Source of the DNA: Caryophanales bacterium UBA3668
GTDB lineage: Bacteria; Bacillota_I; Bacilli_A; RFN20; CAG-826
Length of the DNA stretch: 26,106 nucleotides
Assembly (NCBI GenBank): GCA_002373085.1
Contig: DFJP01000102.1
Coordinates: forward strand, 1-26,106
Reading direction: 5' to 3'
The notes beneath the pieces were generated by a model. It saw only the letters and a program-made list of their open reading frames with translations. It was not told the origin of the DNA and did not search any database. The position numbers and the translations under genes are program-made. This document shows positions 2,992 through 21,862 of this stretch, piece after piece (the first letter of the stretch is position 1; every line of letters begins with the position of its first letter).

Positions 2992-2999
2992 AATCATTT

Positions 3000-5825: not shown

Positions 5826-5835
5826 ATTATTCCTC

Positions 5836-5850
5836 CACGATTTCTTCGTG
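5836..5850 (-). promoter_or_regulatory. Small 5' UTR hairpin touching the ribosome site
   Basis: CACGA and TCGTG form a 5-bp stem around AGAAA in the leader of the secreted-protein gene. The stem ends against GGAGG. It could tune ribosome access or protect the mRNA 5' end; it is short and may be chance. Confidence 0.3.
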
Positions 5851-5876
5851 TTAAAATCCTATCTACTTTCGAGAAT

Positions 5877-5892
5877 AGGAAATCGTTTTCTT
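5877..5892. promoter_or_regulatory. LacI-family operator before the secreted Ig-like gene
   Basis: AGGAAATCGTTTTCTT matches the operator at 2889-2904 at 15 of 16 positions, with the same CG centre. It begins 6 bases after the -10 box at 5899-5904, so it overlaps the transcription start, in almost the same geometry as at the importer promoter. Confidence 0.8.
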
Positions 5893-5898
5893 AGTTTT

Positions 5899-5927
5899 AT
5901 TGTAGTAAGTAAAATTTTCTAATTCAA
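5899..5927 (-). promoter_or_regulatory. Promoter of the secreted Ig-like gene (and probably lacI)
   Basis: The minus strand carries -35 TTGAAT (5922-5927) and -10 TACAAT (5899-5904) with a 17-base spacer, followed by the LacI-type operator. It lies just after the GH30 terminator. Confidence 0.75.
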
Positions 5928-5960
5928 CAAACAATTTTTTAGACAAAGTCTATCGAAAAA

Positions 5961-5983
5961 ACACAGCCGTTATATGACTGTGT
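5961..5983 (-). terminator. Intrinsic terminator overlapping the GH30 stop codon
   Basis: On the minus strand, ACACAGTC pairs with GGCTGTGT (8 bp, one G-T wobble) around a 7-base loop, followed by a run of six T. The 5' arm lies inside the last codons of the GH30 gene, and the loop contains its stop codon. Confidence 0.8.
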
Positions 5984-7280: not shown

Positions 7281-7287
7281 AACTGAT

Positions 7288-7295
7288 ATTTTATA
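7288..7295 (-). promoter_or_regulatory. -10 region of the GH30 gene, close to the start codon
   Basis: TATAAAAT on the minus strand ends 7 bases before the ATG, which would put the transcription start about 3 bases before the start codon. No convincing -35 is seen 17 bases upstream, and there is no Shine-Dalgarno between box and ATG. Confidence 0.45.
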
Positions 7296-7361
7296 GGCTT
7301 TTAAATGAAATGATTATCCATTATTTTTTGAAAGAAATTTTTATCATTTAGATAAAGAAAA

Positions 7362-7379
7362 TCGCCTCAATTTAAGCGA
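7362..7379 (-). terminator. Likely terminator after the Ig-like lipoprotein gene
   Basis: On the minus strand, TCGCTT pairs with AGGCGA (one G-T wobble) around a 6-base loop, followed by TTTTCTTTAT. The stem is short but the T tail is good. Confidence 0.6.
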
Positions 7380-7406
7380 CTTCTTGATGGGTTTTTGCTG
7401 ATTTTA

Positions 7407-8687
7407 CTACTCTTCAGTGTAGGTAATGTAATTAAAGCCATACCCGTCTCCAAAGGCTCTGCAACCATCTATTCTTACGTTCTCTTCACCTGTACGAATG
7501 TAATAACTACTAACTGAATAAGTTCCTTGAACACTGACCACCTGACTCGTGGATATTTTATCAACGTTTTTAGAGCCATATTGTTCAAAGACTACACGTT
7601 CGCCAGTGACAGACTTCTTTATTTCACAAGTTAGTCTAAAGTATACTTCACCAAGATATTTTTCATATTGAGTAGGAAGTTGCACTCTTACAGTAAAAGT
7701 AATAGATAACTGGTTAGGCGCAATGACCCAAGTGACTTCACTAACAGCAAAACTGTCATGTTCAACCCTAGTGTATGTCTCTTCTCTTTCGGTTATGTTT
7801 AAGGTGAAAGGAATAGTAGTTTCATATCCTTTATTTGTCACCGAAAGGACTAATGGATATTCACCAACTTGTAATAAGTCGTAACTACCTTCTTTTACGA
7901 TGATTTGACTAGATATATCACTATCATCATCTCCCGCAAAAGCAGTGATTCCTAATTCTACGAAATCTAAAGATTTATATTTATGGATAGCGACATCTTT
8001 CTTAATCGATTCAGTCACTTCATCTTGATATTTGAAATATGGTTTTTCATTATCAATAACATTAAGTGTAAATTTATCTTTTTTTGATCTTCCATATTCA
8101 TCAACATAGACAACCGCGGTAACTTCAATTTCTCCGCTTGTCTTTGCAGTGAATTTATTATCGTCTAAAACATCTACTGAATTCTCTGTAGAGAAATAGT
8201 ATTTCACCAAAGCGTTAGAAGGGGTAACTGTGTAAGGAAAATCATACACTCTTTTAGTGCGGTATTCGTCTTGGACTTCTGTAACTTCATGTATAGTCGC
8301 TAAAGTCGCTACGGTCACTTCAATTTCATCACTATAATCATGCCACTCCGCTCTTAAGGTCGCAGTGCCATCACTTTTAGCCTTAACATAACCTAATGAA
8401 TCAACAGAAAAAATATCCGTGTTACTACTAGACCAAGTCGCAGTAGAAAAATAAGCGTCTTTCCCTTCTGCATTTTTCCCAACTGCCTTAAATAGATATC
8501 CATGGTCACTAACGAAAAGATAATCGTAGGTGAAATAATCAGATGATCGTTGTCGCTCAATCTTTAAATATCCTTTATCGGTAACCGGAGGAGTTTCTCC
8601 ACCTCCACCACCTGGATTAGGAGTGACACATCCAGTGATAAAGAAAGATAAGATAATAGAAATTGGAATAAAATTTTTATTTTTCAT
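7407..8687 (-). CDS. Ig-like surface lipoprotein, function unknown
   Basis: A 426-residue lipoprotein. The signal peptide ends in ITGC (Cys20), followed by a Pro/Gly linker (PNPGGGGG) that lets the body stand off the membrane. Two Big_2-like Ig units follow: about 40-128, with 'ATWSSSNTDIFSVDSLGYVKAKSDGTATLRAEW', and about 130-212. After these is a DUF5011/cadherin-like unit at about 214-300, with 'LGITAFAGDDDSDISSQI' and 'VGEYPLVLSVTNKG'. The C-terminal 120 residues are beta-rich and unrecognised. I see no catalytic signature. It is divergently transcribed from the CBM9-like gene, and its promoter has an inverted repeat at the -35. No Shine-Dalgarno precedes the ATG and the -10 lies 8 bases from it, again suggesting a leaderless transcript. 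Probable role: holding polysaccharide or displaying a surface domain (inference). Confidence 0.85.
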   Translation of the reverse strand: MKNKNFIPISIILSFFITGCVTPNPGGGGGETPPVTDKGYLKIERQRSSDYFTYDYLFVSDHGYLFKAVGKNAEGKDAYFSTATWSSSNTDIFSVDSLGYVKAKSDGTATLRAEWHDYSDEIEVTVATLATIHEVTEVQDEYRTKRVYDFPYTVTPSNALVKYYFSTENSVDVLDDNKFTAKTSGEIEVTAVVYVDEYGRSKKDKFTLNVIDNEKPYFKYQDEVTESIKKDVAIHKYKSLDFVELGITAFAGDDDSDISSQIIVKEGSYDLLQVGEYPLVLSVTNKGYETTIPFTLNITEREETYTRVEHDSFAVSEVTWVIAPNQLSITFTVRVQLPTQYEKYLGEVYFRLTCEIKKSVTGERVVFEQYGSKNVDKISTSQVVSVQGTYSVSSYYIRTGEENVRIDGCRAFGDGYGFNYITYTEE

Positions 8688-8800: not shown

Positions 8801-9295
8801 ATGAAATATTTACTTAACAACTTCACAGGTGAAATTGCTTCACCAAAAACTTCCTTCAATGTCACTAATAGAGGAACTTCGCTTGTCTTCTCTTTTGTCG
8901 CTGAAGAATCATCTTTGTTTTCATATTCCAAAAAAGATAATGATGACTTATGGAAGGGCTGTGTTGTTGAAGTATTTTTAGACCTTGGCGATAAGGATTT
9001 CTATTATGAATTTGAAGTTGCCCCTAATGGAGCTATCTTTGTCGCTAAAAAATATCCAGATCATTTAGAGTTTATCAAAAGCAATTTCTTCAAATCATCT
9101 GTAACTGTTAATGACAGCATTTACAAAGTAAATATGGAAGTCGATTTATCTAAACTTAAGGTTTCTCATATTGTGAGATATAACGCCTTTAGGATTGAAA
9201 ATGAAACCGCAAAAGAAAAGAGCAACAATCTTGAAGCTCTTTCTCCAACTCTATGCGATACTTTTCACATCAGAGATAAATTTATTAATTTATAA
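8801..9295 (+). CDS. Cytosolic CBM9-like carbohydrate-binding protein
   Basis: A 164-residue protein starting MKYLLNNFTGE. An upstream in-frame ATG at 8714 exists, but the promoter at 8767-8794 lies inside that extension, so the ATG at 8801 is preferred. The centre reads DDLWKGCVVEVFLDLGDKDFYYEFEVAPNG (about residues 49-78), matching the 'LW..D.VEVF.D....Y.EFE.nP.G' core of CBM9-like domains, which usually form part of secreted xylanases or surface glycan-binding proteins. Here the domain makes up the whole protein, and there is no signal peptide, membrane helix or enzyme domain. It therefore appears to be a cytoplasmic sugar-binding protein or an enzyme accessory. The 3' end overlaps the convergent PIG-L gene by 6 bases. 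Its biochemical role is unknown. Confidence 0.8.
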   Translation: MKYLLNNFTGEIASPKTSFNVTNRGTSLVFSFVAEESSLFSYSKKDNDDLWKGCVVEVFLDLGDKDFYYEFEVAPNGAIFVAKKYPDHLEFIKSNFFKSSVTVNDSIYKVNMEVDLSKLKVSHIVRYNAFRIENETAKEKSNNLEALSPTLCDTFHIRDKFINL

Positions 9296-10108
9296 ATTAC
9301 TTTCAATCTCTTTTCTTAAATCATCAACAAATGAAAGTGCAAATTCCTTAACATCAAGTTGAGGATTTTTTAATAATGGTTTCATATCGATAGCATAGCT
9401 AACCATCTTATATGAGTCCACGGAATGGGATTGGAAATATGTCGCATTTTGATAACGTCTTCCAATACTTGCTTTTGTATAGCTCTTGCCACCTGCAATT
9501 TGGCTTTTGAAGACATTAAGGATTTTCTTTTGAAGCTTTTCATTACGAGAAACATCAAATCCAACTTTACGGTCATCGCTAATCCAATCAAGTCCTCTCC
9601 ATACTTCGCAACCATAGAAGAGTTTTGGTTGGTCTTCTTTAGGTAGACTTCTAATTGCTTTAATGACTTTTAGAACTACTCCAACATGGGTTGGGTGTTT
9701 ATCAAGAACTGAATGAGTGTAAATAACTTCTGGTTTTAATTCTTTAATAACCTTGATGATGTCATTAGTCAATCTATCATCGCTTTTATCTTTCACTTCT
9801 TTAGAAGAATAGTTAAGCATATATAAGGAATTGTATTTGCCAATTTCTGCAGCTTCTTCTTGTTCCTTGATTCTTACTTCTTTCATCATTTCATCAGTGT
9901 AGTCTTTATATTCACCGGTTCTAGCAGATCCACCACCATCAGTGCATTCCACTAATGCGAAAGAATATTTCTTGGAATAGTAGCCTTTTAAAATTCCATC
10001 AATCGCCATGATTTCGCAATCATCTTGATGCGCGCAAATACATAGGTATTTAACTTTATTATCTTTTCTATTTGTTGGGTAATAGACAAATCCTTTTTCG
10101 AGTTTCAT
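9290..10108 (-). CDS. PIG-L/LmbE-family zinc deacetylase
   Basis: A deacetylase of the PIG-L/LmbE family, which removes acetyl groups from GlcNAc-type amino sugars. It carries the metal motif AHQDD (family AHPDD; His27, with Asp29/Asp30) and the distal HPTH motif (His138/His141), which supplies the remaining zinc ligand. TDGGGSARTG at about 57-66 is the usual active-site loop. There is no signal peptide, so it acts in the cytoplasm. I chose the ATG at 10108: AAGGTGG lies 8 bases upstream, whereas the in-frame GTG at 10120 falls inside that ribosome site. It has a very good promoter of its own. With GH20 and a NahK-like kinase in the window, an N-acetylhexosamine or chitin-oligosaccharide substrate is reasonable, as for archaeal diacetylchitobiose deacetylases of the same family; other acetylated sugars remain possible. 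It overlaps the convergent CBM9-like gene by 6 bases. Confidence 0.88.
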   Translation of the reverse strand: MKLEKGFVYYPTNRKDNKVKYLCICAHQDDCEIMAIDGILKGYYSKKYSFALVECTDGGGSARTGEYKDYTDEMMKEVRIKEQEEAAEIGKYNSLYMLNYSSKEVKDKSDDRLTNDIIKVIKELKPEVIYTHSVLDKHPTHVGVVLKVIKAIRSLPKEDQPKLFYGCEVWRGLDWISDDRKVGFDVSRNEKLQKKILNVFKSQIAGGKSYTKASIGRRYQNATYFQSHSVDSYKMVSYAIDMKPLLKNPQLDVKEFALSFVDDLRKEIESNL

Positions 10109-10160: not shown

Positions 10161-10208
10161 TTTTTTCACTAAACAAAATAATATATTGATGATTTGTGAT
10201 TTTTATAT

Positions 10209-10237: not shown

Positions 10238-10263
10238 AGTTGTGAAGATTATTTTTTAGGAAT

Positions 10264-12747
10264 GTGAAAAAAGAAATGATTAATGAAATTTTAAAACTCA
10301 TCAAAGAAATAAAATCTGCGAAGTCTTCTAAAAATGAAAGCTCTTCAATCAACGATCAAATATTCTTTTTAAAAAACGATAATATCCTTGCTTTAAGAAA
10401 TCCAATCGGAGATTCTCGTTTTCCTTATACCGTTGATGGCTTAACTTTATGGGCCTATGCATCTGGTAACATTTCTATTAATCAATCTAATTTCTTTATC
10501 ATCCCTCCAACTGTAGAAGGAAAAGAACCATATATCAACTTCTATGGCGGTATTAAAAATAAAAATAACAAATACGATGTATTCTCTTTAACCGGTAATA
10601 GTGACACCGAACTTGGAATGAATGAAGAAACATACACTATCTTCAATCCTTCATATTGCTATTACATTAGAGTGATTAAAGGAATCATCTTTGCAACTAA
10701 ATTAACTGTTACCAAAGAAAAGAAGATTATATGCTCCGTGTACGCTATTAATAAGAGCAGAAAAGAAGTTGATGTTTTTTCTTCACTTTACTTTAATCCA
10801 CTACTCATTCATTCATCCGTAGAAGATGAAGAAACCAAGTGGTTTAGAACAGTTAAAATCGATAAAGAAACTGCATATTTTTCTTCAATTGAAGATCTTT
10901 CTAGAGAAATCCATTTAAATAACTTTGCGATTTTAAAAACTGCCTCTAATGGTGATTCAAAAGATGTCACTACTAGAAGAATGGATTATGTTGGGGATAA
11001 GAATCGTTCTATATCTCAATCAATTAATCTTAGAAATGGATGTTTTGTTAATCACTTACCATCCGCTAGCTTTACCGATATGGCGATTTATGGTGATATC
11101 GTTTCTAAACACCTATTACCAGGAGAATATTTAGAATCTAACTATCAAGTATCTATCTCCTTTAACAAGATGGAAGATAATGAAGAAGAATATAACTTAA
11201 CCACTAATGAGAAGTTATTTAATGAATCATTTAAGAAAAGACAAAACAATCTCAAGATTCACTTCTCTAAATTAAACGACTATAACCTTGATAATGAATT
11301 ATTCAATAACTTCCTTAAAAGTGTTATTGAACAAGTTGATTATGGTTCAAAAACTAAAAACTCATCTTTGATGCTACTTGGAATTAGAGATGTCTATCAA
11401 ATGATGGAAGCATCTTTAATCTGGGATAAAGAAAACGCGAGAAATAAGATTCTTGAATCTTTATCATATCTAGATCCAAGTGGAAGAGCACCTCGCCAAT
11501 ACGCCAAAGAATCCAAAGGAGATTCTCCTTTACTTGATAACCGTGAATTTATTGACCAAGGTCAATGGATTATTTCCACTATCTACAAGTATTTAGCGTT
11601 CACAAACGATTATTCCATCCTCAAAGAAGAATGTGGTTACTGTAAATTAATCGGTAGAAAAGCAGGAGAAAAGCTTGAAGAAAAAGATACAGTCTATGAC
11701 CATCTCATTAAGATTATTAATTTCTTAACAAGTAACATTGATAAATCCACTAATTGCTTAGAAGCAAATTATGGAGATTGGAACGACGCAGTTGATGGAC
11801 TTGGATTAAGCGATAAAGAAGCTTTTGGTAATGGAGTGTCCGTTATGGCAACTTGCCACTTATATCAAAACCTCCATGAAATGGAAGAAATAAGGAAAAT
11901 CCATAAAGACAAAAAAGATCCACATTACTTAAAAGTCGCAGAAGAAGTTGAACAAGGAATTCTTAATAACGCGATTGTCTCTAAAGGAAACGAAAGAAAG
12001 ATAGTTCACGGCTGGGGTGATAATAAATCATTCTATGTTGGAAGCTATGATGATGTAGACCATAAATCTAGATATAGTTCTACTTCCCACTCCTTCTTTG
12101 TTTTAAGTGGTTTATATAATAACCACAAAGATTTCCACAAAGATATTCTTAAAGCTAGAGATGCATTGGATAGTAAATATGGTCTATTAACTTTTGATCA
12201 ATATTTCGATAAGAAAGACGCTTATAAAGTTGGAAGAATTGTCAATCTTCCTAAAGGAACTGCTGAAAATGGAGCCACATATATCCACGCGGGTATGTTC
12301 TACGTAAGAGCGTTATTCCAAATGAATGAAGGCAAATTAGCGTTCGACCAAATCTATAAGCTCATCCCAATCACTCATAAAAACATCACCACTTCCCCAT
12401 TTGTAATGCCAAATTCATATGGAGATAATAAAGAACTCGGAATCGATGGAGAAAGTATGTCTGATTGGTATACAGGCAGTAGTAATACATTACTTAAGGC
12501 TATTATCTTTGATATGCTTGGTATCAAACCTCAAATTGGAGATACATTAGAAATTAATCCAACAAATTATTTCCCAAGTGATGAAGTTGATATTACTCTT
12601 CCAATTAAAGGAAAGACTGTCACTGTTAAATATCAAAACAAACATTCTGGAGAAAGAAAAATTTACGTTAATGATGTCTTACTTGAAGGCCATAACGTAA
12701 ATCTTAAGAAATATAGAAATAAAGTAACAATCAATGTTATTGATTGA
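10264..12747 (+). CDS. Divergent GH94-like disaccharide/oligosaccharide phosphorylase
   Basis: An 827-residue cytoplasmic protein of the GH94-type (alpha/alpha)6 phosphorylase fold; cellobiose and chitobiose phosphorylases are of about this length. The N-terminal third is a beta-sandwich region. In the barrel, GDWND (504-508) matches the GH94 motif that carries the general-acid Asp. GTAENGATYIHAG (665-677) contains the phosphate-contacting His (His675), and DWYTGSS (734-740) carries the Thr-Gly phosphate loop. The C-terminal cap has LGIKPQIGDTLEINP, as in GH94. Phosphorolysis would yield a sugar 1-phosphate, a natural feed for the phosphohexomutase gene nearby. The N-terminal part lacks familiar GH94 stretches, so it may belong to a separate branch or a related family (GH149/GH161 type). 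Start: GTG at 10264, with AGGA very close, or ATG at 10276, with AGGA rather far; undecided. It stops with TGA and overlaps the convergent GH16 gene by 11 bases. Confidence 0.82.
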   Translation: MKKEMINEILKLIKEIKSAKSSKNESSSINDQIFFLKNDNILALRNPIGDSRFPYTVDGLTLWAYASGNISINQSNFFIIPPTVEGKEPYINFYGGIKNKNNKYDVFSLTGNSDTELGMNEETYTIFNPSYCYYIRVIKGIIFATKLTVTKEKKIICSVYAINKSRKEVDVFSSLYFNPLLIHSSVEDEETKWFRTVKIDKETAYFSSIEDLSREIHLNNFAILKTASNGDSKDVTTRRMDYVGDKNRSISQSINLRNGCFVNHLPSASFTDMAIYGDIVSKHLLPGEYLESNYQVSISFNKMEDNEEEYNLTTNEKLFNESFKKRQNNLKIHFSKLNDYNLDNELFNNFLKSVIEQVDYGSKTKNSSLMLLGIRDVYQMMEASLIWDKENARNKILESLSYLDPSGRAPRQYAKESKGDSPLLDNREFIDQGQWIISTIYKYLAFTNDYSILKEECGYCKLIGRKAGEKLEEKDTVYDHLIKIINFLTSNIDKSTNCLEANYGDWNDAVDGLGLSDKEAFGNGVSVMATCHLYQNLHEMEEIRKIHKDKKDPHYLKVAEEVEQGILNNAIVSKGNERKIVHGWGDNKSFYVGSYDDVDHKSRYSSTSHSFFVLSGLYNNHKDFHKDILKARDALDSKYGLLTFDQYFDKKDAYKVGRIVNLPKGTAENGATYIHAGMFYVRALFQMNEGKLAFDQIYKLIPITHKNITTSPFVMPNSYGDNKELGIDGESMSDWYTGSSNTLLKAIIFDMLGIKPQIGDTLEINPTNYFPSDEVDITLPIKGKTVTVKYQNKHSGERKIYVNDVLLEGHNVNLKKYRNKVTINVID

Positions 12748-15079
12748 GTTTCTTCTTATAAATGAATAACGCTGCTACTAAGGTAGAGGCAAAAACAACA
12801 ATAATAGAAATGATGAGCGCAGTCCCATCATTTTTTATTGATGAATTAATAAAGCTAGGCGCATTATTGCCGCCATTACCCCAATAAGATAATAAGTAAG
12901 CATATCCAGTAGCGTAGCTTTGAGTGAAATGCTTCATTTGTTCACTTGCTAGTAAATTAAGTTCTTCACTAGTAAGCTCGGAGTATTGATGCGCTAAATA
13001 GGTTCTAGTGTCCATATCTGCGTTACATAAAGCGGTGTCTAACTTGTCTTTGAAACTTTGATAGTTATTGATAATGACACTATCAAGGAGATATGGATCT
13101 GAATTGCTTCCTTTATTGCCAATAATGGCAAATCTTACTGTCTCACCAGTTAAAGCGCCACTACTAACTCTAAAATAGTATCTAAAAGGCGAAGAACCAC
13201 TAGTTAAGGCTGAACAACTAATAGAAGTGAAAATGCCCCAAGAAGCCCCTTCATTTAATGAATAAAGCAAGGTTATAGTTCTTCCACCTGTTCCGGAATA
13301 AGAATATAAATCAACTTCGATATCTTTGAAGCTATCAATATCAAATTCCATCATCGCACAGGCTAAGTCATCAGTCTCACTATAAGTAGAAGCAAGAGCC
13401 TGTTTAAGTGGATAATACGGACTACCACTTGTTGAAGTCATAACTGCATTAGTTGGCTTCATCGCAATCGTATTAACATCGCTCTTCACATAATATTTGC
13501 AAGAAGAGAATCTCCAATTTTGATTAACGTTATTATTTGGCGCAATAACTCTTTCGGTGTTCACATTATCTGAAGTTTGTCCGTTGTTCTTAGTGAAGAA
13601 AGAATAACCAGTCGCGTTAGGAACTACTTCTTCCTCTTCTTCACTATATTTCAAAGAAATATTATCAACAAAGAATCCAAAATCATTCGATTCAGAATCA
13701 CAATAAATTTTAATTGTCTTTTTACCAGCAGGAATACTTAACTCTTGAGAGAATGTCGTCCATTCATTTCTACTCGCTAAAGTGCCAGTTGCTAAGATTT
13801 CTACTCCATCGGCATACGCTCTAGCAGAACCATATCCACGATAATTAAATGAATACACTAGTTTTTTAATTCCACGAATGTTTGGATTGATATATCTAAG
13901 ATATGAATTGCCTGTGTGATTCTCTCCAGAAATCTTGATTCCATATGACCCATTAGATTCATTAATGTCATAGCTATGAGAAACATTGACATCTCCACTA
14001 GTCTCAAAATGATCTTCTAAGCCGTATTTAAAATCACCATGAGGAACAAATTCTGTTTTTGGAGAAGTCGTTACTGTACGGTAATACTCTTCATATGTTC
14101 CTAACCCTTCAGGAACATTGATGTTAGTTTGATTCTTAAATGGAGTGTACTTGAAATAATCAAGTTCCATAAAGGACTTATCAAAATTAGGAATACCACA
14201 GAAAGAACTTCTTCCAGGAATCCAAACACCTAAAGTCACTCTTCCAACGTTATTGGAAATGTGATTTGGATTAGACCAGCTACCGATAAGGACTTCATCG
14301 ACAAACCATTTCACCATCTTCGTGTTATTTGAGTAATACCACTCTAAACAATAAGTATGAAATTTGTTGTCATTTAAATAGACAGGAGCTGCCACTCTTT
14401 GACTCTTATAAGTATCTTCATTTTTATATGTTGTACAGATAATTTGATTGAAATATAAATCGTCTTGATCTTCACCCTCAACATACGTTGGAAGTTCAAA
14501 ATCCATTTCGTTATAGTTAGTGCCACCACTTTCTCCGTAATTAAATGTCCAGAAAGCAGTACAAACACCTTCCATAGGCGCTACTTTAAATCTTGCTTCA
14601 AATCGACCAGGACCATAGACGTCTCTACTTTTAATACACCCACCGGTTCTAGTGCCATCTCGAGAATACACTCTTCCGCCACCAGTAACGTCATCATGCG
14701 CATATCCGTACCAATCATCTAGATCATAATTAAAATCATTATCTTTATAATAATCACCTAATGCGCGGAATAAGACTGTCTTATCAGTGGAATTGTAATA
14801 AACGTTTTCAGGGACTACTCCACTATTACGTGAAACACCACTATTTCCCCAAGCTTTTTTAGAAATAACCCAATTATCCATTGAGATACCATTAGAAAAA
14901 TCATCATAGAAAACATTATTTGTGTCTAATTCTTCTCCTGGTTCCACTCCAACATTATCCATTTCAGTTGAAGTTGCATTTGCCTCAAAATATGGGGTTT
15001 CTTGACGCGTAATTAATGAAGTAATCGCTCCAATAGCAAGTCCAAGAGCAAGGATAATTAATAGTGTTTTCTTTTTCAT
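12737..15079 (-). CDS. Membrane-anchored GH16 endo-beta-glucanase with binding modules
   Basis: A surface enzyme of about 780 residues. An N-terminal signal/anchor helix lies at about 4-23. The GH16 domain spans about 55-315: FYDDF.NG opening, 'GGCIKSRDVYGPGRFEARFKV' (146-166), and the catalytic motif NEMDFELP with nucleophile Glu191, Asp193 and acid/base Glu195. Because it is E-x-D-x-E, it lacks the beta-bulge residue (E-x-D-x-x-E) common in bacterial laminarinases. Next come a CBM4/9-like jelly roll (about 346-477, ending 'FGFFVDNISLKY'), an acidic linker EEEEE, a second beta-sandwich (about 488-670), a helical juxtamembrane region (about 671-735), and a membrane helix near 752-773 with the tail KKKLNQ. 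It thus acts outside the cell, tethered at the C-terminus. It is cotranscribed with the phosphohexomutase gene (3-base gap) under the ROK-type operator. Beta-1,3(4)-glucan is the likely substrate. Confidence 0.9.
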   Translation of the reverse strand: MKKKTLLIILALGLAIGAITSLITRQETPYFEANATSTEMDNVGVEPGEELDTNNVFYDDFSNGISMDNWVISKKAWGNSGVSRNSGVVPENVYYNSTDKTVLFRALGDYYKDNDFNYDLDDWYGYAHDDVTGGGRVYSRDGTRTGGCIKSRDVYGPGRFEARFKVAPMEGVCTAFWTFNYGESGGTNYNEMDFELPTYVEGEDQDDLYFNQIICTTYKNEDTYKSQRVAAPVYLNDNKFHTYCLEWYYSNNTKMVKWFVDEVLIGSWSNPNHISNNVGRVTLGVWIPGRSSFCGIPNFDKSFMELDYFKYTPFKNQTNINVPEGLGTYEEYYRTVTTSPKTEFVPHGDFKYGLEDHFETSGDVNVSHSYDINESNGSYGIKISGENHTGNSYLRYINPNIRGIKKLVYSFNYRGYGSARAYADGVEILATGTLASRNEWTTFSQELSIPAGKKTIKIYCDSESNDFGFFVDNISLKYSEEEEEVVPNATGYSFFTKNNGQTSDNVNTERVIAPNNNVNQNWRFSSCKYYVKSDVNTIAMKPTNAVMTSTSGSPYYPLKQALASTYSETDDLACAMMEFDIDSFKDIEVDLYSYSGTGGRTITLLYSLNEGASWGIFTSISCSALTSGSSPFRYYFRVSSGALTGETVRFAIIGNKGSNSDPYLLDSVIINNYQSFKDKLDTALCNADMDTRTYLAHQYSELTSEELNLLASEQMKHFTQSYATGYAYLLSYWGNGGNNAPSFINSSIKNDGTALIISIIVVFASTLVAALFIYKKKLNQ

Positions 15080-15082: not shown

Positions 15083-16528
15083 TTATTTCTCACTAACGAT
15101 GTTTTGTACCTTGTCGATATATTGTTTTAATTCTTCAATTAACTTTTTGGCGATATCTGCATCTTTGAATTCAGCGAATAATCTGAACGCTGGTTCGGTG
15201 CCGCTTAATCTAAGTAGTAACCATTGTCTATCATCAAATAGAATCTTTAAGTTTCTACCAAAGATTTTTACATCATTATGTTGAATAGAGAGTTCTGGCA
15301 AGTTGTTAGCCATATATTGGAGAACTTTTTCTGCATCAACATCTAAAGTGATAAAGTCTTCAAAGAAGGAATAGTTATAATCCACGCTTTGTTTAAGTTC
15401 TTTAATAATCTTACTGACTGGTTTATTCATCTTAATAACCATCTCTAAGAATAAGGCTCCTGAGAACGTTGCGTCTTTTCCATAGATATAGCCTCTCATA
15501 GTAAGTCCACCAGAAGATTCTCCACCGAGTAAAGCATTATGTTCATCCATGCCATGGGTGATGTTTTTAAATCCAACATCAACTTCATGACATTTATAAC
15601 CTAATGACTCCGCTACTAAGTCGACTAAAACTGAAGTAGCACAGTTTTTAACGATATCTCCTTTATAGCCTCTTTGAGTAATTAAATACCAATAGATAGC
15701 TGCTAGGATTTCGTTAGCGGAAACATAGTTTCCTTTTTCGTCGATAATACCAAGTCTATCTCCATCACTATCAGTGGCCATACCTAAGTCATATTCTTGG
15801 TTAACTACTGTTTCAGAGAATTCTCCAATTAAAGCTTCTTTAGTAGGATTTGGTAAGTTAAATCCAAAGAAGGCATCATGTTCTTCATTCATAATTGTGA
15901 ATTGATGGATGTGGAGTTTTTCTGCTAAAGGTTTAAGACCAATAACACCAACACCATTCATATTGTTATAAAGAACTCTTAATTTATTTTTAGTCACACC
16001 TGGATCAATAAATGATTTGATGTGAGATAAATAGCTTCCTAAATTATCAAAGTCTTCAAGTAAGTCAGCTTTTCTAGCCACTCTTTCATTCATTACTTTG
16101 ATATCTTTAACTTCGCCTATTTTCTTTTCCACTAATGAGGTAAAGTTAACATCTGCATCATATCCACCAAAGGTGAATACTTTAATGCCATTAAAATAGT
16201 ATGGGTTATGACTTGCTGTCATCATTACACCATAGTAGTTTCTCATATCTCTAGTAGTCGACATAACTGTTGGTGTTGGGACACTATGAGTGATTAAAAA
16301 ACATTTAATCTTGTTGCCATTTAAAACTTCGACAAACCACTTCGCTGCAAAATCACTCATAAAGCGATTATCATATCCGACAATGATTGGTCGATCTTGT
16401 TGATTATTCTCAATAATAATGTTGGCTATTGCTTGAGCGATATATTGGATATTCTCCTTGTTGAAGTCATCTCCAATCACTCCTCTAAAGCCACCTGTGC
16501 CAAATTGAATCTTACTCTTCATATTCAT
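15083..16528 (-). CDS. Alpha-D-phosphohexomutase (phosphoglucomutase/phosphomannomutase)
   Basis: A 481-residue cytoplasmic enzyme that interconverts sugar 1-phosphates and 6-phosphates. All four family loops are present: the N-terminal FGTGGFRG; the phosphoserine loop TASHNP (about residues 103-108); the magnesium loop DSDGDRLG (about 250-257); the sugar-specificity loop GGESSGG (about 330-336); and the phosphate-binding SGTEPAFR near the C-terminus (about 445). GExSGG is nearer to phosphoglucomutases than to GlmM (GEQSGH), so glucose 1-phosphate is the probable substrate. AGGAAAG lies 7 bases before the ATG. It is first in an operon with the GH16 gene, and its promoter carries the TTTTTAG-N7-AAAAAAT operator. 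It would channel phosphorylase product into glycolysis. Confidence 0.92.
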   Translation of the reverse strand: MNMKSKIQFGTGGFRGVIGDDFNKENIQYIAQAIANIIIENNQQDRPIIVGYDNRFMSDFAAKWFVEVLNGNKIKCFLITHSVPTPTVMSTTRDMRNYYGVMMTASHNPYYFNGIKVFTFGGYDADVNFTSLVEKKIGEVKDIKVMNERVARKADLLEDFDNLGSYLSHIKSFIDPGVTKNKLRVLYNNMNGVGVIGLKPLAEKLHIHQFTIMNEEHDAFFGFNLPNPTKEALIGEFSETVVNQEYDLGMATDSDGDRLGIIDEKGNYVSANEILAAIYWYLITQRGYKGDIVKNCATSVLVDLVAESLGYKCHEVDVGFKNITHGMDEHNALLGGESSGGLTMRGYIYGKDATFSGALFLEMVIKMNKPVSKIIKELKQSVDYNYSFFEDFITLDVDAEKVLQYMANNLPELSIQHNDVKIFGRNLKILFDDRQWLLLRLSGTEPAFRLFAEFKDADIAKKLIEELKQYIDKVQNIVSEK

Positions 16529-16547
16529 TTTTTCACTTTCCTAAAAA
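16527..16547. promoter_or_regulatory. ROK-type operator before the phosphohexomutase-GH16 operon
   Basis: On the minus strand this reads TTTTTAG, then GAAAGTG, then AAAAAAT. It matches the site at 19331-19351 at 20 of 21 positions. It covers the ribosome site and touches the start codon, just after the predicted transcription start. Confidence 0.65.
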
Positions 16548-16558
16548 ACTACATTTAT

Positions 16559-16587
16559 ATATTACCATTCAATTAAATAATTGAAAA
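16559..16587 (-). promoter_or_regulatory. Promoter of the phosphohexomutase-GH16 operon
   Basis: On the minus strand an extended -10 (TGG then TAATAT, 16559-16564) lies 17 bases from TTTTCA (16582-16587). The operator follows 11 bases downstream. The boxes are imperfect, and alternatives such as TATAAA at 16554-16559 exist. Confidence 0.5.
16568..16585. repeat. Perfect AT-rich palindrome in the promoter spacer
   Basis: TTCAATTA-AA-TAATTGAA is an 18-bp perfect inverted repeat between the -35 and -10 of the phosphohexomutase promoter. It could be a second regulator site. Being AT-rich, it could also be chance in this background. Confidence 0.35.
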
Positions 16588-16647
16588 TACAAAACGAGAA
16601 TATTTACAAAATAATCAACTAATATGACAAAAAATGACAAAAAGAAA

Positions 16648-16663
16648 AGGGGCCGAAGTCCCT
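16648..16663 (-). terminator. Terminator with UUCG tetraloop after the large lipoprotein gene
   Basis: On the minus strand AGGGAC-TTCG-GCCCCT folds into a stem with one A-C mismatch, closed by a C(UUCG)G tetraloop, followed by TTTCTTTTT. The cUUCGg loop is unusually stable. The hairpin starts about 20 bases after the stop codon. Confidence 0.75.
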
Positions 16664-16684
16664 AATCATATAAATGATTTAAGA

Positions 16685-19309
16685 TTAACGCACTTCAATA
16701 CCATCAAGGATGAATGTGTAATCTGCTGCTAATTGAGCACATGTGGAGAATCTAATAAAATTAACTCCATTAGTAACATTTGCTGCATAGTAATCATATT
16801 CATACATTGTCCAACCATTACCAGCTGGAGTGGCGGTAAAGTGATAGGTTGAACTTTGATCGGTTTCAACAGATGTTTTGGTAGCGCCTTCAGCGACTAA
16901 CGCTCTTTGGAGAGCAGGGTCTCTATCACTTAAATTATCAACATCCATTAGTTGAACATAGATATGAGTTTCTGGTAAGTTCTTCGCAAAGAATTTAACG
17001 TGAACTGTATCTTTCACTAATGGCGCTGGAAGTTGAATGTTGATATATGTATCACCATCAATGCTTAAGTTATAGACATCTAATGCATTTGTGGAATTAC
17101 CATAGGTGTCTGTGGTGTTATCTCTAGTTTTACCACAGTCATATTCACGGCCACTCTTATGTTGACATGTAGTCTTGGCTAAGTCGTGTTCTTCATCAAT
17201 GATAGTTAATGTTTCTTCTGCTTCAGGATCAGTGCCAGTAACATTAATTGTGTATTTTGCTTTCTTAGTAACATCATCTTCTGTATAAGAAATAGTAACT
17301 TGTTTATTTTCTCCAGAGGTTGTCATATCAGGAGCAACAATAGAAATACCACTATCATCATTAGGAATTACTTTATTTGAACCATCTGTGTAATAAGCAG
17401 TAAGTTCTCCATCAAAGACAAATTCATCACCACGCTCAAATTCAGTGGTCATATTAGCAATAGTAATTGATTCGAGAGCGTTAGCTCTTGGGTAGTTATC
17501 TCTTTGGATTAAACGGAAATCATCAAAGACAACACATCCTTCGGTACATTTTGCGCTTAACCAAACATTAAGACCATCGATATCAACAGGATCCATTTCA
17601 GCAGCTTCAAAGAAATCAATTAAATTCATTTCTACTGTCACCCATTCTGTTTGATGTTTAGCGTATTCACTCCATTTAAGGTGTTTACCAGTTGTAGTTG
17701 TTCCAAAGACTGGTTTCATATAAACACCATTATCTTCTCTACCGTTATAGACAACACCTTCTAAAGGAATGAATTTATATGTTACTTTGTAAAATTTAAC
17801 TTCTCTAGCAGGGATAACTGTACCAAAGTCGACACGAACCGAACATTCTCCTAATCTAATACCAATTGATCTAGATGAATATTTTGCATCAAATACTTCG
17901 TTTGTTCTTCTATGGAAGTAAGCGTTATCTTCCGCACTACTAACATGATTAAATCTATCAGAGTATTCTGCTCTTGCTAAAACAGTTTCTGGGGCACCAT
18001 CATCTTCATATGAGAAGTTAATGTATTTAATTGTTACATCGTTATTTCCTTCTCCAATTGGATTAGCAACTAAACGGAAATAGAAATAATCATTTGCTCT
18101 ATTTGTTTCTTGTTTAGCGCGTGTAAGTGTATCAACTAAATAATAATGTTCATTATCATATGAGCCATAGACACAGACATATTTGTCATAGCCTTCAAAG
18201 CCAACGCTTAATTTGTCTTTAATTAATGTTGGGGTAGCAATTTCGATATAACCGCCTTTTTCTAAAGTCGCAAGCGCGTTTTCTGCTAGTTTAGCTTTAT
18301 CAAACTTAACTGCAATACCTCTATAATCGATTTCAGAAGAACCAAATTCACTAGTTAATCCAGTAGTGACATCATCGTTTAAATCGTAAACAAAGTTAAC
18401 AGTTGGTTGAATGTGATAGTTATATTCAACAGTGACTGGTTTATAGTTTTCATCACCTTCAGCGAGGATAACTGCGTAAATATAAGAACCAACTTCTTCA
18501 GGTTTTTCACTACCTAAATCTTCTCTACCAGAGTCGGTTACTATGTAATATTTATAAATTGTGGAGTCCATTGCTCCTTCTGGATTAGTGCCATAATAGA
18601 AGTGATATGATTTACCAACATAGATGTTAAGCCCATCGACCATATCTTTAACTTCGCCACCGTTATAGTCATAAGAAACTCCAATAGTAACTTCTTCTCT
18701 AGTATCAACAGCGATAACGTTAATGATATAAGATGTTCTAGCCCCTTCATAAAGAACATTTACTTCGTAATTCTCATGAGGAACAGTCATATCTGGAACG
18801 TTTTCAATCATGTCTAATGTCATTGGAACGTTTTCTCTTGTGTCATCACTCTTTAAGACAATTAGAGTTCCTCCAGCGACTGTAAATTCATCACCAACCA
18901 TATAACTTTGTTTTGGCATGCTGCCTTCTTTAATTGTGATTGATCTAACAGTAACTGTAGCTTCATTAATCGCAATGTTATAAGAGGTTCTAGCCCCTTC
19001 ATAAAGAACATTAACTGTATAGCTAGAAGCCGCAACAGTCATATCTGGAGCATTTACAATCATTGATAATGTCATATTGACATCTTTAGTGGTTTGATCA
19101 CTGTAACTAACGACTAGGACTCCACCAGCAACTGTAAAAACATCACCAACAGTAAATTCTTTTTGAGGTTCTGCTCCTTCTTTAATTGTGATTGAGGAAA
19201 CAGTAGGAGTAGGAGGAGTAACTTCTCCACCACCTGTGTTGTTGCATGCACCTAATAGCAACAAGAAACATGCTAAAGGAACATAAAAAAGATGTTTCTT
19301 AGAATTCAT
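16685..19309 (-). CDS. Large Ig-like surface lipoprotein, probable polysaccharide-binding protein
   Basis: An 874-residue lipoprotein with a perfect lipobox (LGAC, Cys22) and a Gly/Thr/Pro linker. Two tandem Big_3-like Ig repeats with an 84-residue period follow (about 39-122 and 123-206). Both begin SITIKEG and contain 'VGD.FTVAGG' and VNVLYEGARTSY. A third, more distant copy lies near 640-720 ('LESITIANMTTEFERGDEFVFDGELTAYYTDGS'). Between them are MBG-like and beta-sandwich regions (about 210-600). The C-terminal 140 residues form another beta domain with a CBM-like end ('YTFILDGIEVR'). I see no catalytic residues. Its promoter carries the ROK-type operator, so it should be co-regulated with the GH16 operon, and it may capture the polysaccharide for it (inference). 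AAAGGAAG lies 8 bases before the ATG, and an 8-codon upstream frame ends exactly on the start codon. Confidence 0.85.
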   Translation of the reverse strand: MNSKKHLFYVPLACFLLLLGACNNTGGGEVTPPTPTVSSITIKEGAEPQKEFTVGDVFTVAGGVLVVSYSDQTTKDVNMTLSMIVNAPDMTVAASSYTVNVLYEGARTSYNIAINEATVTVRSITIKEGSMPKQSYMVGDEFTVAGGTLIVLKSDDTRENVPMTLDMIENVPDMTVPHENYEVNVLYEGARTSYIINVIAVDTREEVTIGVSYDYNGGEVKDMVDGLNIYVGKSYHFYYGTNPEGAMDSTIYKYYIVTDSGREDLGSEKPEEVGSYIYAVILAEGDENYKPVTVEYNYHIQPTVNFVYDLNDDVTTGLTSEFGSSEIDYRGIAVKFDKAKLAENALATLEKGGYIEIATPTLIKDKLSVGFEGYDKYVCVYGSYDNEHYYLVDTLTRAKQETNRANDYFYFRLVANPIGEGNNDVTIKYINFSYEDDGAPETVLARAEYSDRFNHVSSAEDNAYFHRRTNEVFDAKYSSRSIGIRLGECSVRVDFGTVIPAREVKFYKVTYKFIPLEGVVYNGREDNGVYMKPVFGTTTTGKHLKWSEYAKHQTEWVTVEMNLIDFFEAAEMDPVDIDGLNVWLSAKCTEGCVVFDDFRLIQRDNYPRANALESITIANMTTEFERGDEFVFDGELTAYYTDGSNKVIPNDDSGISIVAPDMTTSGENKQVTISYTEDDVTKKAKYTINVTGTDPEAEETLTIIDEEHDLAKTTCQHKSGREYDCGKTRDNTTDTYGNSTNALDVYNLSIDGDTYINIQLPAPLVKDTVHVKFFAKNLPETHIYVQLMDVDNLSDRDPALQRALVAEGATKTSVETDQSSTYHFTATPAGNGWTMYEYDYYAANVTNGVNFIRFSTCAQLAADYTFILDGIEVR
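18735..19012 (-). repeat. Pair of 26-bp direct DNA repeats within tandem Ig units
   Basis: The stretches 18735-18760 and 18987-19012 are identical and lie 252 bases (84 codons) apart. Both encode VLYEGAR of successive Ig repeats. The DNA identity exceeds that of the rest of the repeat units, which suggests recent duplication or gene conversion. Confidence 0.75.
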
Positions 19310-19332
19310 AAAGAAATCTTCCTTTCATTCAT
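19306..19332 (-). CDS. Possible 8-codon upstream leader frame (MNERKISL)
   Basis: An ATG at 19332 sits 7 bases after AGGAAAG. It opens a short frame, MNERKISL, whose TGA overlaps the lipoprotein ATG (ATGA). The geometry fits a translationally coupled leader. However, the ribosome-like sequence is also the ROK-type operator, and the main gene has its own AAAGGAAG, so this may be coincidence. Confidence 0.3.
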   Translation of the reverse strand: MNERKISL

Positions 19333-19351
19333 TTTTTAACTTTCCTAAAAA
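19331..19351. promoter_or_regulatory. ROK-type operator before the large lipoprotein gene
   Basis: On the minus strand TTTTTAG, GAAAGTT and AAAAAAT follow in order, with outer arms that form an inverted repeat TTTTTA...TAAAAA. It is identical over all 21 bases to the site at 21842-21862. It starts 9 bases after the -10 box. Confidence 0.7.
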
Positions 19352-19360
19352 TCTACTTTT

Positions 19361-19366
19361 ATTATA
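19361..19366 (-). promoter_or_regulatory. -10 box of the large lipoprotein gene
   Basis: A perfect TATAAT on the minus strand, just after the ROK terminator. The -35 is weak (TTTTAA at 17-base spacing). Confidence 0.55.
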
Positions 19367-19396
19367 ATAAACTGTTTCGCTAATTAAAAGAAAAAC

Positions 19397-19412
19397 CGCC
19401 AAATAATTGGCG
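19397..19412 (-). terminator. Intrinsic terminator after the ROK gene
   Basis: A perfect 6-bp stem, CGCCAA with TTGGCG, around a 4-base loop, followed on the minus strand by GTTTTTCTTTT. It separates the ROK gene from the lipoprotein gene downstream. Confidence 0.85.
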
Positions 19413-19425
19413 ATTTCTCTAATAA

Positions 19426-20535
19426 CTATTTAGATAATGATTTTTTAAGGATGTAATCCACTCCGATAAAGGCGCCTCCAACAATTTGTCCTTTATCTCC
19501 AAGTGGTGAATAAACGATGTTAATCTTTTGAGCAATCTTACTCGCTACTCTTCTAACTTCATTAATGTAATCATCACCGAATTTTGCTACTCTACCCGCT
19601 AAAACAATATTAGAGATATCCGTAACAGCGATTAATGATCTAAGAGCTTTTCCAACTTTATTCGCACTTTCAATTACCATTTGATGGATATCGTTATTGG
19701 TCTTATAAAGTTCAAACAAGTCTTCCATCTTAAGTTTTCTATTAACAACATTACCTGCTTTGTCTAATAAGATTCTTAATGACGCTACATCTTCAAGGTA
19801 TTCAAGCTTTCCATTATTCTCACAAAGTAAGAATCCCATTTCACCAGAATATCCATTGTCGCCTCTAAATAATTCTTTATTAGCAACAAATGATCCACCA
19901 ATACCATAATCAAGTAAGACAACCGCACCATTATTGCAATTTGCTAATGCACCTTTTGACAATTCACCATAGGTGATGAGGTTACCATCGTTAGTGAGAT
20001 AAGTAGGAACATTATGGAATTGTTTTTCAAATGCAGCTTGGACAAAGTGTTTCTCACTACCCTCGGTTTTATCTTTAACTAAACCAGAGATAGAGATAAC
20101 AATATTTTTAAGTTGAGCGTCTGAATGTGAATTGAATAATAATTCATTAGCTTTAAGGATAACTTTTTGAGTAGAGTCTTCATCGATTTCATCAATTGTC
20201 ATTGAATCAGAAATAATACTTTCTTCTTTAATGTTAGTAATCGATATATCAGCGCGATGATGAACCATGTTAATGATTAAGATAAGTCCAAATTTTTCAT
20301 TTAATGTATAGAAAACTTGTTTTCTACCACTACCCTTAACTGACATAGATTTAGCAACATCAATCATTCCTAAATCTAATAAATCTTTAATGATTGAAGA
20401 CATAGTCGCGTTAGATAATTTCAAAGTATCCGCAAGTTGAGTGGCGGATCTTGGTTCTTTTCTAAGCAAGTCAATAACTAACTCAAAGTTAATTTCTCTA
20501 CAGTAAGATTGATTTTTTCCAAGTACTCTTTCCAT
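19426..20535 (-). CDS. ROK-family transcriptional regulator lacking the zinc loop
   Basis: A 369-residue sugar-responsive repressor of the NagC/XylR (ROK) class. A winged helix-turn-helix occupies about 14-80 (INFELVIDLLRKEPRSATQLADTLKLSNATMSSIIKDLLDLGMI). The ROK domain follows, with TNDGN at about 182 and the glycine-rich LLDYGIGGSFV at about 209. The usual ROK zinc site (His in GEIGH plus CxCGxxGC) is absent: here the sequence reads GEMGFLLCENNGKLEYLE, with the His replaced by Phe and only one Cys. This suggests a DNA-binding regulator that has lost zinc binding and sugar-kinase activity. AAGGAG lies about 6-7 bases before the ATG. Its promoter overlaps a copy of the TTTTTAG-N7-AAAAAAT site, and three further copies precede nearby genes, so it probably controls these and itself. 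Effector unknown. Confidence 0.92.
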   Translation of the reverse strand: MERVLGKNQSYCREINFELVIDLLRKEPRSATQLADTLKLSNATMSSIIKDLLDLGMIDVAKSMSVKGSGRKQVFYTLNEKFGLILIINMVHHRADISITNIKEESIISDSMTIDEIDEDSTQKVILKANELLFNSHSDAQLKNIVISISGLVKDKTEGSEKHFVQAAFEKQFHNVPTYLTNDGNLITYGELSKGALANCNNGAVVLLDYGIGGSFVANKELFRGDNGYSGEMGFLLCENNGKLEYLEDVASLRILLDKAGNVVNRKLKMEDLFELYKTNNDIHQMVIESANKVGKALRSLIAVTDISNIVLAGRVAKFGDDYINEVRRVASKIAQKINIVYSPLGDKGQIVGGAFIGVDYILKKSLSK

Positions 20536-20559
20536 ATCAAATCTCCTTAAAACATTTTT

Positions 20560-20588
20560 ATTATAAAATAATAAATCTATTTTTTCAA
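20560..20588 (-). promoter_or_regulatory. Promoter of the ROK gene
   Basis: On the minus strand -35 TTGAAA (20583-20588) and -10 TATAAT (20560-20565) are 17 bases apart. The -35 lies inside the ROK-type operator at 20579-20599. Confidence 0.75.
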
Positions 20589-20599
20589 TAGACTAAAAA
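20579..20599. promoter_or_regulatory. Putative autoregulatory ROK operator
   Basis: Both 7-base arms (TTTTTAG and AAAAAAT on the minus strand) match the other three sites exactly, at the same 7-base spacing. The centre differs (TCTATTG). It overlaps the -35 of the ROK promoter and the T tail of the preceding terminator, so part of the match may reflect that T tract. Confidence 0.5.
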
Positions 20600-20606
20600 A
20601 ATGAAA

Positions 20607-20633
20607 AAGACCGAGGTTGTTACCTACGGTCTT
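20607..20633 (-). terminator. Strong terminator after the surface-protein gene
   Basis: On the minus strand AAGACCG pairs with CGGTCTT, extended by AGG with CCT across a single-base bulge. It is followed by TTTTTCATTTTTTT. It ends the surface-protein transcript before the ROK gene. Confidence 0.85.
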
Positions 20634-20654
20634 ATTTACTTTTAATCTTTGAGA

Positions 20655-21827
20655 TTAGGCGCGTTTCTTTCTAAGAATGAAGTATGCACCAAATCCAATT
20701 ACGACTACTGTTAATGTACTAACAAGTACGACAGCAGATGCACCACTTCTGAAGATACCATTAGCAAGTAATCTTGATGATGGAGCTGTTGGGAGTGAGG
20801 TACCAAATGCATGACTATAGAAGTAATTGAATTGATCGTAATATGTTGCTTCACGGCCATTTGTTAATGTACACGCAACGTTTAATGCATCAGCTTGTTC
20901 AGTGAGCATTTTGCGTGATCCCATTTCTAGGAATGTTCTATAGTTATTGCCTTCTTCAGACATTGCAGAACATACCCAACCAAATCTATCAAGGAAGTCG
21001 ATATATGATTTGATTGATTGTGATCTATTAATCATAATCGCTGTAATGTAGTAATAGAAATTATAAGCAGAGTTATTAGTTCCAATAACGATACCAATAC
21101 GAGCATTTTTGCCTTTTAAGTTAGTGGCGAAGTCGCCGTCAGCTTTTGGAGCGTTACCTTGAACGTTTCCAGCAAATGCTACATGGTTGTTATAGCCTGC
21201 AACACCAGTTCCACCGTGTGTAGAAGCATAATTATAGTTGTTGTATGCTTCCCAAGGATTACCTTCACCATCATCTCTGAGTAAAACTTTCCATGTATCA
21301 GAATCATCAGTTAAATAAACAATTCTTAAGTATGATTTAGCGGCTGCTGAATTTTCTGGTAACTCATTCCAGAAGATAGCGATATCTTGAATGTTTTCAA
21401 TGTATTGATCAGAAACCATTGCAACATTGTATTTATTAGTAGCGATAGTCTTAATATCGTCATAGATTTCTTTAAAGACACCACTTTCAGCGTTATTAAT
21501 ACTTTTTGAAGTAGTTTCTGGCAATTCGCTTGCAGAACCATAACTACCTAATCTAAACGCAGAGTGGTTTGCTTCATATTTACCATAATTACCAGTAAAG
21601 GTAAGAGTTGAAGTTGGATCAAAAGATGGAATTGTGAAGTTTGCGCCCGAAGATGAAACAGGAATGTCATCTTGATTAACGTATCTTGCTAAATAGTGAT
21701 CAACATATGTTTTGGATGGATCAAGTTCCGCTCTTGCTCTAACAGCTTGCTTAGGTGCCATTCCACCAGCGACGACTGCGGCTAACCCTAAAGTCAATGT
21801 TGAAAGAAATAAAATTTTAGATTTCAT
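20655..21827 (-). CDS. Membrane-anchored surface protein, function unknown
   Basis: A 390-residue exported protein. A signal peptide (KSKILFLSTLTLGLAAVVAGG) is followed by an ectodomain rich in Asn, Tyr and Ser (about 35-280), a helical segment (about 285-340) and a C-terminal membrane helix with the tail ILRKKRA. There is no LPXTG. The juxtamembrane part 'FLDRFGWVCSAMSEEGNNYRTFLEMGSRKMLTEQADAL' resembles in pattern the corresponding part of the GH16 enzyme (a Cys, then YR/TR.(F/Y)L, then LT.E...L). I recognise no enzyme motif. I chose the ATG at 21827: GGAGG lies 5 bases upstream, and the in-frame TTG at 21839 overlaps that site. It has its own promoter with the ROK-type operator and a strong terminator, so it forms a single-gene unit. 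It may help bind or display the same polysaccharide that GH16 attacks (inference). Confidence 0.82.
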   Translation of the reverse strand: MKSKILFLSTLTLGLAAVVAGGMAPKQAVRARAELDPSKTYVDHYLARYVNQDDIPVSSSGANFTIPSFDPTSTLTFTGNYGKYEANHSAFRLGSYGSASELPETTSKSINNAESGVFKEIYDDIKTIATNKYNVAMVSDQYIENIQDIAIFWNELPENSAAAKSYLRIVYLTDDSDTWKVLLRDDGEGNPWEAYNNYNYASTHGGTGVAGYNNHVAFAGNVQGNAPKADGDFATNLKGKNARIGIVIGTNNSAYNFYYYITAIMINRSQSIKSYIDFLDRFGWVCSAMSEEGNNYRTFLEMGSRKMLTEQADALNVACTLTNGREATYYDQFNYFYSHAFGTSLPTAPSSRLLANGIFRSGASAVVLVSTLTVVVIGFGAYFILRKKRA

Positions 21828-21841
21828 AAAAACCTCCAATT

Positions 21842-21862
21842 ATTTTTTAACTTTCCTAAAAA
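21842..21862. promoter_or_regulatory. ROK-type operator before the surface-protein gene
   Basis: It is identical over 21 bases to the site at 19331-19351, and the identity continues for two more bases. It starts 8 bases after the -10 of a good promoter, covering the predicted transcription start. Confidence 0.72.

Follow-up and report, generated by a model that had tools for sequence, protein, structure and literature searches.

The operators described for ROK-family regulators are T-rich/A-rich inverted repeats (PMC4856308, PMC9104551). In Caldicellulosiruptor, sites in the 5′ untranslated region or over promoter elements, those of XylR, a ROK protein, among them, have been read as a sign of repression (PMC8579813). 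BglR of Thermotoga maritima responds to cellobiose and glucose (PMC3750489), and the enzyme and importer genes of a mixed-linkage glucan locus in Blautia producta are induced by barley glucan (PMC10318527). The locus described here lies on contig DFJP01000102.1 of Caryophanales bacterium UBA3668 (assembly GCA_002373085.1), of which positions 1 to 26,106 of the forward strand, 26,106 nucleotides in all, were analysed and are referred to as the window. It contains a gene for a ROK-family protein among several copies of a short AT-rich palindrome. On comparative sequence evidence, we consider these palindromes to be the operators of an autoregulated ROK repressor that would control a regulon for beta-glucan uptake and phosphorolysis, with a probability of roughly 0.86. 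This reading is supported by conservation of the sites at the same genes, by turnover in their position, by a test on loci outside the training set and by co-occurrence with the ROK gene.

A sequence-only reading of the window had proposed that the ROK protein represses its own gene, a phosphohexomutase-GH16 operon and the genes of a large lipoprotein and a surface protein. The comparative evidence supports that proposal, which was incomplete, having missed a site at the GH94 gene and a weak one at the PIG-L gene. The regulon would thus also include GH94, probably PIG-L and, in relatives, the substrate-binding protein (SBP) gene and the GH16-permease-ROK importer operon.

The four copies of TTTTTAG-N7-AAAAAAT reported in that reading are all exact, lie on the minus strand and are where it placed them (Table 1). 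Those at 19331 and 21842 share the same 21 bases, and the copy at 16527 differs from both at one base, again as reported. The description as two asymmetric arms was exact in position, but the element is better described as the palindrome TTTTTA-N7-TAAAAA or, with its variants, TTTTT(A/C)-N7-(T/G)AAAAA. Against these four exact copies, 300 order-2 Markov versions of the window have 0.003 on average; Markov versions of its intergenic DNA (1,305 bases, 23% GC) have 0.007, and none of 3,000 trials reached four. All five TTTTT-N9-AAAAA words on the plus strand of the window are intergenic. With up to two mismatches allowed, the window has 8 matches against 2.95 ± 1.76 expected, and since 1 of 100 shuffles reached this number, the loose search alone is only mildly significant. 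A strong fifth site, with one mismatch, lies in the leader of the GH94 gene. A matrix scan of the window added a weak sixth at the PIG-L promoter (score 14.4), followed in the list by a shifted copy of the ROK-gene site (8.7) and then by a score of 8.2.

An alignment of 37 ROK sequences, run once against reference genomes, led to eight loci, two of them close: those of uncultured Erysipelotrichaceae bacterium RUG14536 (G001, ROK protein 80% identical) and RUG14810 (G002, 62% identical). Gene order is conserved in both, with an extra GH16-like gene in G002. Both have sites at the surface-protein, ROK, lipoprotein, phosphohexomutase and GH94 genes and a weaker one at the PIG-L gene, and the lipoprotein-gene site is identical over 21 bases in the window, G001 and G002. 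The sequence-only reading would have been refuted by a motif at random density across the genome. The loose motif does occur at chance level in these two relatives (27 and 31 matches, reversed control 24 and 31), and its density was dropped as evidence for that reason; the word TTTTT-N9-AAAAA is also at about chance (40 places in G001 against 54 in the reversed control, and 43 against 34 in G002). However, a matrix places the regulon sites at the top genome-wide. A matrix built from the window and whichever of the two relatives was not being ranked gives ranks 1-4 of 40 to the four regulon sites of G001 (1.6 Mb) that fit the word. For G002, 35 of the 43 places were listed. The regulon fills ranks 1-3 and 5-7 of these, one of its sites being counted twice in different registers, and tblastn showed no regulon gene close to rank 4 (C3:18538).

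We scanned 18 importer-operon loci with a matrix trained on 16 sites of the window and of its relatives G001 and G002. The loci comprise 16 from other genomes and the importer loci of G001 and G002 (L055 and L072), whose promoters were untrained. The genome G122 has its locus on two contigs (L057 and L094), and only L094, which includes the promoter region, was counted. In 17 of the 18 loci, the best match falls in the region before the GH16-permease/ABC-importer operon, mostly in the divergent promoter shared with the SBP gene, and 14 have two matches scoring at least 12. The two matches are 80-109 bases apart in 15 of the 17 importer promoter regions that have a pair, 173 in L071 and 23 in L095. 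Judged by eye, there is one site at each divergent promoter; the only scored case, G001, gave ambiguous promoters. Looping of DNA between the twin sites is not claimed, as their spacing keeps no consistent helical phase. In L095 (G170 C169, 1748-1791), two full sites stand 23 bases apart before the GH16-importer operon. A LacI-linked paralogous importer locus, L097, has no site (best matrix score -0.2).

These importer operons also contain, after the permease genes in those compared, a gene for a protein of about 1,000 residues that begins like a lipoprotein and matches no Pfam family (L055, 11239-14430). In the distant loci, it stands directly before ROK.

The ROK profile matches 15 of 224 genomes in the family of G001. 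The importer permease was found in 17 of 220 genomes, that is, in all 15 with the ROK gene and in 2 of the 205 others: G191 (0.7 Mb), whose locus bears a site, and G158, where it belongs to the LacI-linked paralogue. The strict motif (no mismatches) is present in 10 of 15 ROK-positive genomes (12 places) versus 19 of 205 ROK-negative ones (24 places; Fisher 6.6e-7). Its reversed control gave 1 of 15 (1 place) and 21 of 205 (27 places), and the motif is thus above control in ROK-positive genomes only. Nine of the 12 ROK-positive places are regulon promoters, two of them new, namely a phosphohexomutase leader in G205 and a surface-protein leader in G078; the remaining three, in G060, G040 and G105, lie elsewhere. 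Regulon proteins were compared with 14 of the 30 strict-motif loci. In the ROK-negative genome G076, a strict match occurs in a phosphohexomutase leader beside a lipoprotein gene that is truncated near the contig end, so the ROK gene may be missing from the assembly only. A twin-site pattern was found in 3 of 15 ROK-positive and 2 of 209 ROK-negative genomes (reversed control, 2 of 224), but counts for little because it was composed after its three ROK-positive loci had been seen.

The strict motif of G060, a ROK-positive genome, is upstream of a gene for a lipoprotein-like protein of 478 residues (L118, C45:27346), a possible extra member of the regulon.

Positions relative to transcription start points are predictions rather than mapped positions. 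The site at the ROK gene spans -46 to -26 and contains the -35 element of the promoter TTGAAA-17-TATAAT, in agreement with the overlap claimed earlier. The claim that the other three sites begin 8-11 bases after the -10 holds for the lipoprotein and surface-protein genes (8-9 bases), while at the phosphohexomutase gene a distance of 11 is obtained only with the second-ranked promoter, which puts the centre at +15 and not at +28 as the top-ranked one does. The PIG-L site abuts the -35 of TTGCAC-17-TATAAT. By top prediction, 8 of 10 leader sites are centred at +12 to +19; the GH94 leader site of G002 is at +6, or at +17 with the second choice. The eight upstream sites fall into a group of three centred at -34 to -36 and a group of five at -45 to -47. 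In G002, the sites of the phosphohexomutase and surface-protein genes are not in the leader, but over the predicted -35 or upstream of it. Both kinds of placement suit repression, and the turnover from leader to -35 or upstream positions in G002 favours an operator in double-stranded DNA over a ribosome-binding site.

The same turnover bears on the idea that the element acts at the level of RNA, as a translation or leader element made of a Shine-Dalgarno sequence, AGGAAAG, flanked by T and A tracts. The core does resemble a Shine-Dalgarno sequence, and the phosphohexomutase-gene site extends into the start codon. However, the genes of the lipoprotein and the surface protein each have a Shine-Dalgarno sequence of their own downstream of the site. 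The sites at the ROK gene, at the PIG-L gene and at the two G002 genes with displaced sites are found over the predicted -35 or upstream of it, and there the palindrome is kept while the GGAAAG core is replaced. The position of the sites led us to reject this very unlikely explanation. It is extremely unlikely that the words arose by chance in AT-rich intergenic DNA or by duplication of one promoter. The chance density of the loose motif would fit, as would the identical spacers that some sites share, but not the expectation of 0.007 exact copies, the preservation of sites at orthologous promoters despite differing flanks and shifted positions, or the clustering of best matches in one region in the untrained loci.

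The palindrome might also belong to another regulator of the clade, possibly a global one, with the ROK gene merely a neighbour and a target. We consider this unlikely. It would account for the ROK gene being a target in its own right in the window, G001 and G002, and for some strong copies elsewhere, such as G105 C1:61069 and G040 C21:2466. It would not account for a strict motif that stays at control level in the 205 ROK-negative genomes (24 versus 27 places) and is enriched only where the ROK gene is present (12 versus 1), nor for a ROK recognition helix that is conserved as the site is. Moreover, T-rich/A-rich inverted repeats, with N7 in the case of XylR, are described as ROK operators (PMC4856308, PMC9104551).

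Several observations weigh against the palindromes being operators of the ROK repressor of a beta-glucan regulon. The importer-region sites of L060 are weak, at ranks 2 and 4, and L007 has one site only. The top scores of L071, L094 and L096 were reached by 5, 4 and 1 of 40 shuffles, so that the evidential weight of these loci lies in the position of the match. In the distant loci, there is no strong site directly before ROK, which sits inside the operon. The clade is small and its loci are phylogenetically dependent; L005 and L006 are nearly identical, and L055 and L072 belong to the two training genomes. The strict pattern was composed after most sites were known, including 7 of the 12 ROK-positive places, and when only genomes with new places are counted, the comparison becomes 5 of 15 against 19 of 205 (Fisher 0.014). 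Promoters are ambiguous at two further G001 sites, those of the SBP and GH16 operons. The substrate is also uncertain: beta-glucan is likely, judging from the enzyme families, but not exclusive, since GH94 members act on several sugars and the GH20, PIG-L and APH-type kinase genes of the locus could point to amino sugars.

The ROK protein itself matches the ROK domain PF00480 with 75.9 bits (cut-off 22.9), and its MarR and HTH_20 matches are all under the curated cut-offs. The nearest solved structures are Lmo0178 (E 6e-33) and XylR regulators, with profile matches that run over the full length, helix-turn-helix included. Alignment with these two places the recognition helix at residues 39-52. 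Over 36 homologues, its mean identity to the window protein is 90% versus 58% for residues 83-369, and in the six most distant homologues, it is 81% versus 38%. N182, D183, E191 and E232, which we take to be sugar-binding residues, are invariant among the aligned homologues. Many ROK proteins typically have a CxCGxxGC zinc motif and a GExGH motif, which lie outside the Pfam definition; among the 37 aligned sequences, the zinc motif occurs in none and GExGH in 6, and the window protein has neither. The linker is nearly invariant at G68 and at G70-R71-K72-Q73-V74. A Gly/Arg linker that contacts the minor groove has been described in ROK proteins (PMC9104551).

Read from right to left, the locus consists of genes for an ABC ATPase, an APH-type kinase, a GH20 hexosaminidase, the surface protein, the ROK regulator, the large lipoprotein, the phosphohexomutase and GH16. 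To the left of GH16 are GH94, on the opposite strand, and PIG-L, on the minus strand (Table 1). The PDB entry nearest to GH16 is the beta-glucanase 3axd (E 3e-5). For GH94, which is inferred to be cytoplasmic, the best PDB match is a cellobiose phosphorylase (E 3e-15), and cellobiose, diacetylchitobiose and laminaribiose phosphorylases all match, weakly.

Table 1. Protein-coding genes and predicted operators of the ROK locus in the window.
Feature	Coordinates	Strand	Description	Support or counterparts
PIG-L family deacetylase	9290..10108	-	Probable regulon member	PF02585; orthologues 87% and 78% identical
GH94-superfamily glycoside phosphorylase	10276..12747	+		PF17167 E 1e-28, 100.4 bits (cut-off 27)
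GH16 glucanase	12737..15079	-	N-terminal signal and C-terminal anchor (by eye)	PF00722 E 1e-13; active-site segment NEMDFEL (ExDxE)
Phosphohexomutase	15083..16528	-	Phosphoglucomutase/phosphomannomutase superfamily	PF02878-PF02880; orthologues 89% and 82% identical
Large lipoprotein	16685..19309	-	874 residues, Big_3-like repeats	Orthologues in same place, 45% (G001) and 40% (G002) identical
ROK-family transcriptional repressor	19426..20535	-	369 residues, N-terminal winged helix and ROK sugar-sensing domain	PF00480 E 5e-21
Surface protein	20655..21827	-	390 residues (ATG 21827), no known domain; signal peptide and C-terminal membrane anchor (by eye)	Beta-sandwich
Weak predicted operator	10161..10181		Directly upstream of PIG-L promoter -35, centre -45	Same place in G001 (matrix score 13.0) and G002 (15.0; in the matrix training set in another register)
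Predicted operator	10253..10273		GH94 gene leader, centre about +19	G001 and G002
Predicted operator	16527..16547		Leader/start codon of phosphohexomutase-GH16 operon, centre +15 or +28, promoter uncertain	Leaders in G001, G205 and G076; over/upstream of -35 in G002
Predicted operator	19331..19351		Large lipoprotein gene leader, centre +13	21 bases identical at same gene in G001 and G002
Predicted operator	20579..20599		At ROK gene itself, covers predicted -35, centre -36	G001 (-36), G002 (-47)
Predicted operator	21842..21862		Surface-protein gene leader, centre +12	Leaders in G001 and G078; upstream of -35 in G002

The surface protein probably, if tentatively, binds glycans. It resembles the C-terminal part of a GH16-like protein of G002 (L053, 8808-11294; 26% over 343 residues), and both proteins end, by eye, with a hydrophobic segment and a basic tail. 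The window GH16 has a sub-threshold match to a Reelin subrepeat, and the model of the surface protein resembles reelin-type beta-sandwiches; perhaps the two share one surface module.

A second carbohydrate cluster occupies positions 1-8687 of the window and encodes a LacI regulator, GH30, a binding protein and permeases. It has no strong ROK sites: none of the window's eight best matrix hits scores above 8.2 there. The GH30 protein resembles an endo-beta-1,6-glucanase, below cut-off. G158 carries a similar LacI-GH30-importer cluster (L097).

In the proposed mechanism, ROK dimers would occupy the palindrome TTTTT(A/C)-N7-(T/G)AAAAA as long as substrate is absent, with the winged helix reading the half-sites and the G-R-K linker the A/T tracts. 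From leader sites (centre mostly +12 to +19), the bound protein would presumably block initiation or early elongation, and at the ROK and PIG-L genes, where the sites are centred at -36 or about -46, it would presumably block the -35 or its upstream face. The inducer, by analogy with BglR most likely a beta-gluco-oligosaccharide or glucose, would bind the kinase-like domain and cause the protein to be released. This would free the genes for the GH16 glucanase, the surface protein, the lipoprotein, GH94, the phosphohexomutase and ROK itself and, judging from relatives, for the ABC importer, which would lie beyond the window edge. The GH94 phosphorylase would yield a sugar-1-phosphate that the phosphohexomutase could pass to glycolysis.

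It is doubtful, though conceivable, that ROK acts in a dual mode, blocking promoters with leader sites and helping or tuning transcription from sites centred at -45 to -47. Between species, the site at the ROK gene shifts by 11 bases, from -36 to -47 by predicted promoters, or about one helical turn, which fits a contact with RNA polymerase, as such a contact would require a shift of about one turn. If so, some genes, such as the deacetylase gene, should respond with a sign opposite to that of the structural genes.

With the strengths given above, the comparison defines a ROK operator and its regulon for a group of uncultured Bacilli that has been little studied; the two nearest relatives are, judging by their record names, rumen assemblies. 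It proposes a route for glucan use that leads from surface GH16 through the importer and GH94 to the phosphohexomutase, and ties orphan surface proteins to it. The motif may be used to annotate other genomes of the clade.

The sites of the window, T-rich/A-rich inverted repeats near the promoters of sugar genes, follow the pattern of the ROK-operator family. BglR of Thermotoga maritima, also a ROK protein, represses a beta-glucoside locus that includes a laminarinase and an ABC importer (PMC3750489), a likeness of locus description. BglR acts on one operon with a beta-glucosidase, whereas here there are at least five promoters (six with PIG-L), GH94 and a phosphohexomutase in a different clade. 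XylR of Bacillus and its relatives is a ROK repressor that binds the palindrome GTTT-N7-AAAC, with the same N7 spacing (PMC9104551), and its recognition helix is similar (ATISSI in the solved XylR, ATMSSI in the window protein). However, XylR controls xylose genes and has G/C at the edge of the half-site, where the window operator has T5/A5 tracts. Lmo0178 of Listeria, the closest solved structure, is a ROK regulator of a sugar pathway as well, but is described as controlling alpha-glucan genes (PMC9104551). The mixed-linkage glucan locus of Blautia producta combines a cell-anchored GH16, an ABC importer, GH94 and a regulator, as here, although the reported motif of its GH16_3 is EXDXXE, compared to ExDxE in the window GH16 (PMC10318527). 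Among the open-access literature matches listed, none was a paper describing this regulon. The proposed regulon adds a well-supported new instance to a familiar type of gene control.

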